Assembly: GCA_015065725.1 (NCBI GenBank) | Contig: SVPV01000017.1 | Span: forward strand, 1-46,136 | Length of the DNA stretch: 46,136 bases | Reading direction: 5' to 3' | Source of the DNA: Oscillospiraceae bacterium | GTDB taxonomy: Bacteria; Bacillota; Clostridia; Oscillospirales; Acutalibacteraceae | Part shown: positions 145-2,375 of the stretch, in pieces | How positions within the stretch are numbered: position 1 is the first letter of the stretch | Layout: each line of letters opens with the position of its first letter | Notes under the pieces: model-generated | Told to the model about the DNA's origin: nothing | The model's database searches: none | What the model saw: only the letters and a program-made list of their open reading frames with translations | Made by a program: the position numbers and the translations under genes

Positions 145-295
145 TATAGCAACAAACGAAAAATCTCTCGGTGCATTACATTTTGCTTTTTACTTGCCAA
201 ATGGAATCTCCTTTTTCATCCTTCTGGTACGCACTTCGGAATAGCGGACTTGCCGCTTTTCATATAGTGTAGTACCAAATTGAAAGGGGTAGATT

Positions 296-445
296 ATGGC
301 GGAAAACGAAAAATCTACGACCGTAAAAAGTGTTTTCAAAAGCGGCGAAAGCACTACTACTGAGCGCGAATTCACGGACAAGTGGATCGAGCTTATCAAT
401 ACTTTGGAGAAAGGCAAAAGCGGAAACTTTTGCGAAAAAGCGTGA
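296..445 (+). CDS. Small hydrophilic protein upstream of the serine recombinase (49 aa)
   Basis: ATG at 296 follows a GAAAGGGG ribosome site and opens a 49-residue frame beginning MAENEKSTTVKSVFKSGES and ending at TGA 443-445. The product is charged, with no membrane segment or recognised domain. Short ORFs of this kind often precede large serine recombinases in clostridial conjugative or mobilizable elements, where an accessory or directionality role is possible but not shown here. The recombinase ribosome site lies about 50 bases downstream, so the two are probably cotranscribed. Codon use matches the recombinase rather than the host genes to the right. Confidence 0.6.
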   Translation: MAENEKSTTVKSVFKSGESTTTEREFTDKWIELINTLEKGKSGNFCEKA

Positions 446-512
446 CTAAAGGAACCTTTTGTGGTATATGGATGTAGAAACAGCTTGTTCTATCTCAAAA
501 GGAGATGGAAAA

Positions 513-2066
513 TTGAAAGTAGCTATTTATTGCCGCTTATCCGAAGAAGATAGAAACAAGCAGGTTGAAACCGACGATAGCAACAGCATTCAGAACCAAA
601 AGGCAATGCTGGTGCAATACTCTCTCGAACAGGGGTGGGAAATTTACTGTATTTACAGCGACGATGACTACGCCGGTGCAGACAGACGTCGACCGGAGTT
701 TAACCGTCTGCTGCAGGACGCAGAAGCGAGAAAATTTGATATTGTCCTCTGCAAGACACAATCCCGTTTCACCCGTGAGCTGGAGTTGGTGGAAAAGTAC
801 ATCCACGGTTTATTCCCCATTTGGGGTATTCGCTTTGTCAGCATCGTGGACAATGCCGACACCGACAACAAGGGAAATAAGAAGTCCCGACAGATCAATG
901 GACTTGTAAACGAGTGGTACTTGGAGGATATGTCTGACAACATCCGCAGCGTTCTGAAAAACAGACGGGAAAACGGATTCCATATCGGTGCTTTTGCCCT
1001 TTACGGGTACAAAAAAGACCCCGATCAAAAGGGGCATCTGATCATCGACGAGGAAGCCGCCGCTGTGGTTCGTGAGGTGTTCACCCTCTTTTCGCAGGGC
1101 TATGGCAAAACTGCAATCGCCCGTATGCTCAATGACCGAGGCATACCCAATCCAACCGAGTACAAACGTCTGAAAGGTCTGCGTTACAAGCAACCTACCG
1201 CCAAAAACAGCACACTTTGGAAATACTTTGCGATTTCCGATATGCTGGTCAACGAGATCTACATTGGCAATATGGTGCAGGGCAAATACGGCAGTATTTC
1301 CTACAAGACCAAGCAGAACAAGCCACGCCCCAAAAGTCAATGGTACATCGTTGAGGGAACACACGAACCCATCATCGACCGTGAGCTTTGGGATAGGGTG
1401 CAAAAGATGATAAAGGAACGGGCAAAGCCTTTTGACGTCGGCACTATCGGTCTGTTTGCAAGAAAGGCTCGCTGCGCCAACTGTGGATATGTGATGCGCT
1501 CCTCTAAAAATCGGGGCAAGCATTATCTGCAGTGCTCCAACCGTCACGTGGCGAAGGATGCCTGTATCGGCTCCTTTATCTCGGTTGACAAATTGGAGCA
1601 GATGGTCATTGACGAGCTGAACAGACTTTCCGAGGAGTATCTGAACAAGGACGATTTGGAAAGAAAGATCGAGTTCTGCAACAATCTGCAAGCACAAAAG
1701 GACGGTATTCTGAAAAATATAGCCACCTATGAAAAGCGTGTTGCGGAGTTGTCTAAGGGCATTCGGGAGCTGTATATGGATAAGGTCAAAGGACTCATCA
1801 GTGGTGCAGATTACACAGAGATGTCTAAGGACTTTATCGCTGACCGTGACCGCCTTGAAAGACTCATTTCGGACGGGCGTAAGCAGATTGAAGAAATCGA
1901 GGTAAAAATTGAAGTCGGCGACAACCGCAGAGAGATCATCGAGCGTTACACAAACCTCAAACACCTCACCAGAGAGATGGTTGAAATCCTCATTGACTAC
2001 ATTTCCGTAGGCAAGAGAATTCCTAAAACGAACGATGTTCCCATCGAAATTCACTGGAATTTTTGA
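513..2066 (+). CDS. Large serine recombinase (site-specific integrase/excisionase)
   Basis: Catalyses integration and excision of a mobile element through a serine-DNA intermediate. I choose TTG at 513 as the start: AAAGGAGATGG lies 7-17 bases before it and the product then opens MKVAIYCRLSEEDR, placing the nucleophilic serine at residue 10. The frame is open from TTG 459 and ATG 468, but those starts are poorly spaced from a ribosome site and add residues the family lacks. Resolvase domain about 1-150, including the R-F-T-R-E-L stretch; Recombinase domain about 160-290; zinc ribbon with Cys 321, 324, 341 and about 349; then a coiled coil about 365-460 and a short C-terminal tail. At 517 residues it has normal length and looks intact. 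GC-richer codons than the neighbouring host genes point to transfer. Its 3' end lies about 100 bases from a broken cotJC, marking the element end. Confidence 0.95.
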   Translation: MKVAIYCRLSEEDRNKQVETDDSNSIQNQKAMLVQYSLEQGWEIYCIYSDDDYAGADRRRPEFNRLLQDAEARKFDIVLCKTQSRFTRELELVEKYIHGLFPIWGIRFVSIVDNADTDNKGNKKSRQINGLVNEWYLEDMSDNIRSVLKNRRENGFHIGAFALYGYKKDPDQKGHLIIDEEAAAVVREVFTLFSQGYGKTAIARMLNDRGIPNPTEYKRLKGLRYKQPTAKNSTLWKYFAISDMLVNEIYIGNMVQGKYGSISYKTKQNKPRPKSQWYIVEGTHEPIIDRELWDRVQKMIKERAKPFDVGTIGLFARKARCANCGYVMRSSKNRGKHYLQCSNRHVAKDACIGSFISVDKLEQMVIDELNRLSEEYLNKDDLERKIEFCNNLQAQKDGILKNIATYEKRVAELSKGIRELYMDKVKGLISGADYTEMSKDFIADRDRLERLISDGRKQIEEIEVKIEVGDNRREIIERYTNLKHLTREMVEILIDYISVGKRIPKTNDVPIEIHWNF

Positions 2067-2109
2067 TATGTTGCACTTATGAGATTGCAGCTACCCAAAA
2101 ATGCCGATC

Positions 2110-2140
2110 CCAAAAACCCGCATAAATACTGGGTTTTTGG
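2110..2140. terminator. Perfect 10-bp dyad at the element/cotJC junction
   Basis: CCAAAAACCC (2110-2119) and GGGTTTTTGG (2131-2140) are exact inverted copies around an 11-base loop. The right arm carries five T, so the hairpin could end recombinase transcription from either strand. Because it sits within ~25 bases of where cotJC homology begins (about 2161), a role in the attachment site or in recombinase binding is an alternative. Confidence 0.55.
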
Positions 2141-2160
2141 ACCTCGTTATTCTTACACAG

Positions 2161-2375
2161 TTGCAGCAGAACAAAAGGCAAGGGTAACCTATGATAACCT
2201 GCTTCGTCTTATAGACGATCCCGATATTATAGAACCTCTTAAGTTCTTGAGGGCTAGGGAATTGGTACACTATCAACGCTTCGGAGAAGTTTTAAGAAAC
2301 GCCACCGATAAGCTTGATTGTAAAAATTTCTACGCATTTAATCCATCTTTCGACAAAGATTGTCTTAAGAAATAA
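2161..2375 (+). pseudogene. cotJC: cotJC, 3' fragment (spore-coat manganese-catalase-like protein)
   Basis: From residue V-A-A-E-Q-K-A-R onward the frame reads like the C-terminal third of CotJC/manganese catalase. Both second-half metal-site motifs are present: the glutamate of AAEQKAR and the histidine of R-E-L-V-H-Y-Q-R-F. It then ends with an N-F-Y-A-F-N-P-S-F-D-K tail typical of clostridial CotJC as I remember it. The upstream two thirds (normally about 120 more residues) are missing and are replaced by the recombinase element. The frame stays open back to an ATG at 2079 with no ribosome site, so a separate short protein is unlikely. In the family this is a mother-cell coat protein. Either it is a dead remnant, or it is rejoined on excision. 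Confidence 0.8.

Follow-up and report, generated by a model that had tools for sequence, protein, structure and literature searches.

Large serine recombinase elements split the spore-coat gene cotJC of Clostridia at one codon and are probably excised during sporulation

In the window, by which we mean the whole 46,136-nucleotide stretch of DNA that was analyzed, an element encoding a large serine recombinase (LSR) interrupts the spore-coat gene cotJC. Judged from the sequence, matching attL and attR sites bound this element, and joining of attL to attR would restore the gene exactly, in keeping with the proposal of the initial annotation that a recombinase element splits cotJC. Comparison between genomes establishes the split gene, the att sites, the exact rejoining, the shared target and the mobility of the element. 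The best explanation, to which we assign a probability of roughly 0.7, is a developmentally excised element that resembles the skin element of C. difficile and has cotJC as its dedicated target; that excision takes place in sporulation is our inference.

The window corresponds to C7:1-46136, a contig of a 22-contig, 1.46-Mb genome with a completeness of 97.6%. The initial annotation had described an intact LSR close before a cotJC tail, and this arrangement stands (Table 1). The LSR open reading frame comprises 535 amino acids when counted from an upstream TTG, and a later TTG at 513 is the likelier start, yielding MKVAIYCRLSEEDRN. Pfam profiles identify Resolvase, Recombinase, zinc-ribbon and DUF4368 domains, and the protein matches the PHROG 95 integrase (9e-100). 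Positions 147-197 of the Mn_catalase profile PF05067 match window 2157-2372 (1.6e-9), and similarity to the whole CotJC of relatives begins at 2160, at ...AAEQKARVTYDN, from which the last 70 codons of the gene follow. The break had been placed at about 2161, which agrees with this start of homology, but the crossover core GA lies slightly later, at 2169-2170. The 3' part is 86% identical to the whole CotJC of one relative in the genus. No counterpart of the gene that follows cotJC in the window was found at the other loci, most of which have little flank.

Table 1. Features at the recombinase end of the element, in window coordinates
Feature	Coordinates	Strand	Basis and remarks
Predicted sigma-E-type promoter of orfS	239..268	+	GAATA ... 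CATATAGT; ATA-N17-CATA
orfS, 49 aa, candidate recombination directionality factor (RDF)	296..445	+	Upstream homologue in 83/85 loci; alignment
Large serine recombinase (LSR), intact	459..2066	+	PF00239, PF07508, PF13408, PF14287; likely start 513
attR	2145..2192	+	Element P arm, core GA 2169-2170, then cotJC; family junction alignment and comparison with attL on contig C6
cotJC 3' part	2169..2375	+	PF05067 147-197; homology from 2160

The front part of cotJC, which had been noted as missing from the window, lies at the end of contig C6 of the same genome (C6:6309-5900). Searching this genome with PF05067 gave two pieces, C6:5893-6306 (minus strand, profile 1-152) and C7:2160-2312 (profile 147-197), and nothing else; a second full cotJC, which would have spoken against the initial annotation, is thus absent. 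The genes on C6 are ordered cotJA, cotJB and cotJC 5' part, and cotJB also precedes cotJC in relatives with a whole gene. The anticipated 5' fragment also has the shared core, as attL on C6 (GATTTGGCAGCA, then GA, then TGCCAC) matches attR in the window (ACAGTTGCAGCA, then GA, then ACAAAA). When the host flanks are joined at the common core, GCAGCA followed by GA, a full-length, in-frame CotJC results, with HEDLAAEQKARVTYDN spanning the join. The insertion falls within the conserved DLAAEQ motif, in its GAA codon. In-frame rejoining was obtained for the window and for 11 loci whose two halves share a contig, among which L115 runs to the contig end and L126 is additionally cut at a second site (site C, below).

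Both contigs break inside the element, and their ends share no overlap of 15-249 bases; they are not physically joined. Since the C6 side past the core is nearly identical to locus L092, we read C6:1-5900 and C7:1-2168 as arms of one element. The L092 LSR is 97% identical to that of the window, and its cotJC halves lie 9.85 kb apart on one contig. If C6 and C7 adjoin, with the middle absent from the assembly, the window's element is at least 8 kb; the 11 elements for which a single contig includes both ends measure 3.2-10.1 kb. The cargo of the C6 arm comprises a SEC-C protein along with two genes at G000:C6:1550-4273, one for a type I specificity subunit and one for a PDC-S53 candidate defence protein (1318 bits in PADLOC). 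Cargo differs among the four one-contig elements whose ORFs were listed. No phage structural genes appear in the Pfam matches of the four C6-arm genes, the middle of the element lying outside the assembly, and four small elements of the family look free of such genes by eye only.

The element belongs to a family of small mobile elements, carried by gut-type bacteria, with a single favored target. A scan of GTDB genomes recovered 346 relatives of the LSR, and we analyzed the best 80 of these 346, with identities of 98-77%. Among these 80 and the window, a cotJC half follows the LSR within 600 bases at 75 of 81 loci: 61 have the 3' half in the sense of the LSR, 13 have the 5' half in antisense, and one (L147) has a 3' half with an earlier match start. 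In the remaining six, the halves are farther away (L114, L153) or absent (L098, L107, L144), or the sequence stops 89 bases past the LSR (L089). As far as these loci indicate, this family of LSRs targets the cotJC site almost exclusively. Nearly all breaks fall at query codon 124-128, with insertions in both orientations. The central dinucleotide of LSR sites sets the orientation of insertion, and the junction arms GTTGTTCTT...AAGAACAAC flank GA in sense insertions and TC in antisense insertions (by eye), as expected on this principle.

Carriers include Anaerotignum lactatifermentans DSM 14214, Blautia sp. An249 and Parablautia intestinalis, and further isolate carriers are Anaerotruncus colihominis, Flintibacter muris, Roseburia faecis M72 and Diplocloster modestus. 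At L085-L088 and L092, the LSR is 95-98% identical to that of the window, whereas the cotJC halves are 62-70% identical, which indicates that the element moves between hosts. A cotJC half is also present in 6 of 9 IMG/VR contigs with a relative of the LSR. Phage records with a relative numbered 694, every one below 60% identity, and one plasmid record reached 70% (L174; OY725852.1). This last is a circular 23.9-kb Subdoligranulum variabile record in which a 3' half of cotJC was detected but no 5' half, and we judged it uninformative. At two loci, L098 (after 1980) and L144 (after 6111), an LSR of the same family adjoins non-cotJC sequence, that is, secondary attachment sites. At L114 (after 11551) and L107 (after 1555), a P arm followed by a P'-like arm was seen by eye at the LSR; these may be free attP sites or elements in tandem. 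When the collected loci were searched by motif for a free attP, no clear circular form emerged.

The separated halves of cotJC are conserved. From the junction to the HxQRF motif, 66 of 67 3' halves are open, and the remaining one meets a contig end. Over codons 128-166 of the 3' halves, 171 usable pairs from 66 loci give a median pairwise dN/dS of 0.16, and the 5' halves give a median of 0.26 from 3 usable pairs only. Within the genus, cotJC of the window compared with whole copies gives a dN/dS of about 0.05 (8 usable) and whole copies compared with one another 0.055 (130 pairs), but for these values synonymous sites approach saturation and the time preceding insertion is counted in. Conservation of the halves in part reflects that earlier history. 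Judged by three markers, the host possesses the sporulation program: in the window's own genome, Spo0A and SigK score at or above their cut-offs, and SpoIIID scores 109.2 bits against a cut-off of 111.5.

Directly upstream of the LSR, a homologue of the small gene orfS is present at 83 of the 85 loci with at least 300 nt of upstream sequence; the exceptions, L171 and L172, are distant. OrfS matches no family in Pfam or NCBIfam and nothing in PHROG except for a 0.09 match of one member. Its predicted structure is one helix (pLDDT 67) with a best PDB match at E 0.1, and comparison with known RDFs found no link in sequence or structure. The name TnpW was considered for orfS and dropped, as no Pfam or NCBIfam family matched.

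Ahead of orfS, the motif ATA-N17-CATA resembles a mother-cell sigma-E promoter, and we treat it as a predicted one. After the 83 upstream regions were reduced to 61 non-redundant regions, the motif was found in 50 of 61, compared with a mean of 0.51 and a maximum of 3 in shuffles; other ATA-CATA spacings, from 12 to 22, each occurred in 0 to 6 regions. A stricter sigma-E pattern matched 31 of 83 regions upstream of orfS and 0 of 83 control regions around the orfS-LSR gap. In the positive control, the regions upstream of spoIIID in the genus, ATA-N16-CATA was present in 26 of 30 and the N17 form in 1 of 30. The spacing ahead of orfS is therefore one base longer than that of spoIIID in the genus, which we counted against our main reading. 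A consensus for the SpoIIID box is GGACAAG. The sequence GGACTTG/GTACAAG between the -35 and -10 elements might be read as such a box, a reading that we do not claim; this consensus differs from the C. difficile box KRTAACARK. For C. difficile spoIIID, the mapped sigma-E promoter is described as ATA-N16-CATATATA (PMC3789822), and the spacing given for B. subtilis sigma-E is 12 plus or minus 1, between longer elements (PMC517825). By eye, the cotJ operon promoters of relatives varied, too widely for a promoter model to be trained on them, with no single clear sigma-E match, and the C. difficile coat catalase genes cotCB and cotD are described as sigma-K dependent (PMC3789822), for which reasons the coincidence of orfS and cotJC expression stays a prediction.

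The cotJC gene is also cut elsewhere. Relatives with an uninterrupted cotJC, which the initial annotation had suggested looking for, are common among 70 genus genomes, and the gene is cut in about 20 by manual row count. The cuts fall at four sites: A, the site used in the window, near codon 125; B, near codon 168; C, near codon 55; and D, near codon 24. Uncertain cases were set aside, including contig-end pieces (G063:C49, G078:C1) and 5' pieces for which no tail was found (G003, G011). The LSRs at the four sites are mutually 22-29% identical. LSR-D lies beside a cotJC piece at 6 of 6 genus loci, and LSR-B does so at 8 of 8 loci at 94% identity or more and at 2 of 14 loci with weaker matches. 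Relatives of LSR-C (38-43% identity; 391 Clostridia genomes) occur at 17 loci; at 13 of these, a cotJC half that is broken near codon 55 lies within 1.5 kb, and the other 4 lack one. In L126, from the same genus, cotJC is in three ordered pieces with two elements between them, L168, L169 and L170 are apparently cut at both C and A, and the site-B position is broken again in nine A-type 3' halves. Among viral contigs, LSR-D has no relative, LSR-C has one, without adjacent cotJC, and LSR-B has ten at 38-59%, none adjoining cotJC.

Several further loci deserve mention. The site-D elements L183, L185 and L186 (G001:C3, G082:C25, C8) look prophage-like by eye, with tail- and lysin-like ORFs, and about 14.6 kb separates the two cotJC pieces at site D in G001. 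The class-wide survey of cotJC covered 393 genomes, and its results for genus g55 (4-5 Mb genomes) come from among the matches listed. There, the best match among those listed starts at codon 42-53 in G114, G209, G262, G296, G402 and G471; in G142 and G341, also among the matches listed, it begins near codon 20. LSR-C adjoins the 3' piece in G114 and the 5' piece in G402, and none lies within 1.5 kb in G209, G262 and G296. A short frame at G004:C37:27457-27660, which joins cotJC codons 1-39 to 163-194 and lies beside a whole cotJC, is apparently an internally deleted copy.

A second sporulation gene, the regulator gene spoIIID, is interrupted at about codon 40 in six genus genomes, with its pieces on separate contigs (loci L280-L293; G027, G034, G074, G078, G088, G090). 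An LSR of 511-539 amino acids lies directly at the 3' piece in 6 of 6, and the three compared are 29-33% identical to LSR-C. G062 and G029 have one spoIIID piece each, and spoIIID of the window's own genome is whole.

How might excision be timed? We propose that the LSR inserts the element into the GAA codon of the DLAAEQ motif, that it is made in all cells from what looks by eye like a housekeeping-type promoter, and that alone it would favor integration. In the mother cell, the sigma-E-type promoter would drive OrfS, the proposed directionality factor, which would switch the LSR to excision between attL and attR. The gene would therefore be rebuilt in the mother cell, and the forespore would keep the element. 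Beyond this family, we consider it slightly better than an even bet that mobile elements timed to sporulation use cotJC as a general landing pad in Clostridia. In that case, at least four LSR lineages would use four codons, sometimes two per gene, with the gene assembled in each mother cell. A fifth lineage would use spoIIID, and the class-wide LSR family would be paired with a new family of small directionality factors that reads the host sigma-E clock directly.

Other explanations can be envisioned. Since the genome is metagenome-assembled and the cotJC pieces lie on two contigs that break within the element, they could represent an intact gene that was misassembled. This is highly improbable, as the same junction recurs in independent assemblies and both halves share a contig in 11 loci, some of them isolates. 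Many LSR elements take conserved genes as attB, and those described here clearly move between hosts. It is conceivable, although unlikely, that cotJC is merely a safe harbor without developmental timing: a dispensable gene whose conserved catalytic-site DNA makes a handy attB, which stays broken, and from which excision occurs only when the element moves. The described redundancy of cotJC homologues in C. difficile (PMC11222575) would fit such a harbor, but decay before HxQRF in 0 of 67 3' halves, the targeting of the same mother-cell gene by four LSR lineages, the predicted mother-cell-type promoter of the small gene orfS, and the splitting of the mother-cell regulator gene spoIIID in six genus members all argue against it.

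A doubtful possibility, to which we give a little more weight than to a safe harbor, is that timing resembles that of skin and OrfS is not the RDF. The LSR would then excise alone or with another factor, and OrfS would act elsewhere, for example in control of the LSR. Certain LSRs, TnpX of Tn4451 among them, need no separate factor for excision, and no relation between OrfS and known RDFs was detected. However, the position of orfS directly upstream of the LSR (83 of 85) together with a mother-cell-type promoter is the pattern described for CD1234 of C. difficile skin (PMC5025042).

Our findings bear on how split sporulation genes are read. The intervening elements named in the literature that we found are single cases; here, one recombinase family occupies one cotJC codon in dozens of species, named isolates included, and the question of why mobile elements choose mother-cell genes thus becomes testable by comparison as well as in several strains. 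A clostridial genome with a truncated cotJC does not necessarily carry a dead gene. The loci also form an extensive natural collection in which LSRs, att sites and candidate directionality factors are matched to one another.

The TndX resolvases of plasmid-borne transposons in Enterococcus are about 31% identical across the LSR, and we know of no fixed sporulation-gene target for them. Our literature search, with subscription papers and preprints mostly outside it and most matches judged by their listing entry, found no report of an element-split cotJC or spoIIID. Targets of intervening elements named in PMC10747680 are sigK, spsM, spoVFB, gerE and yabG. Like the cotJC elements, SP-beta in spsM, vfbin in spoVFB and yin in yabG lie within sporulation genes, although these are reported there as prophages or prophage-like, in other targets and as single cases (PMC10747680). 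In C. difficile R20291, a cotJC homologue is described just downstream of the attR of prophage phi027 (PMC11222575). The gin element in gerE of Bacillus cereus ATCC10987 is likewise a non-phage element in a mother-cell gene and uses a serine recombinase, GirC, with a factor, GirX; it differs in its size of 28.6 kb, its three recombinases and its target (PMC5595907).

The closest parallel is with C. difficile skin, in which an LSR element splits the mother-cell gene sigK, every cell expresses the LSR (CD1231), and a small gene controlled by sigma-E and SpoIIID encodes the RDF, CD1234 (PMC5025042); in the cotJC elements, the corresponding sigma-E-type promoter is predicted. Unlike skin, the cotJC elements strike the gene for a structural coat enzyme, carry small and variable cargo and occur in many species, OrfS has no detected relation to CD1234, and excision is predicted from sequence. 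By our analysis, the new part would be the target gene, cotJC, and the known part the logic of skin, in which an LSR is paired with a sigma-E-controlled RDF.
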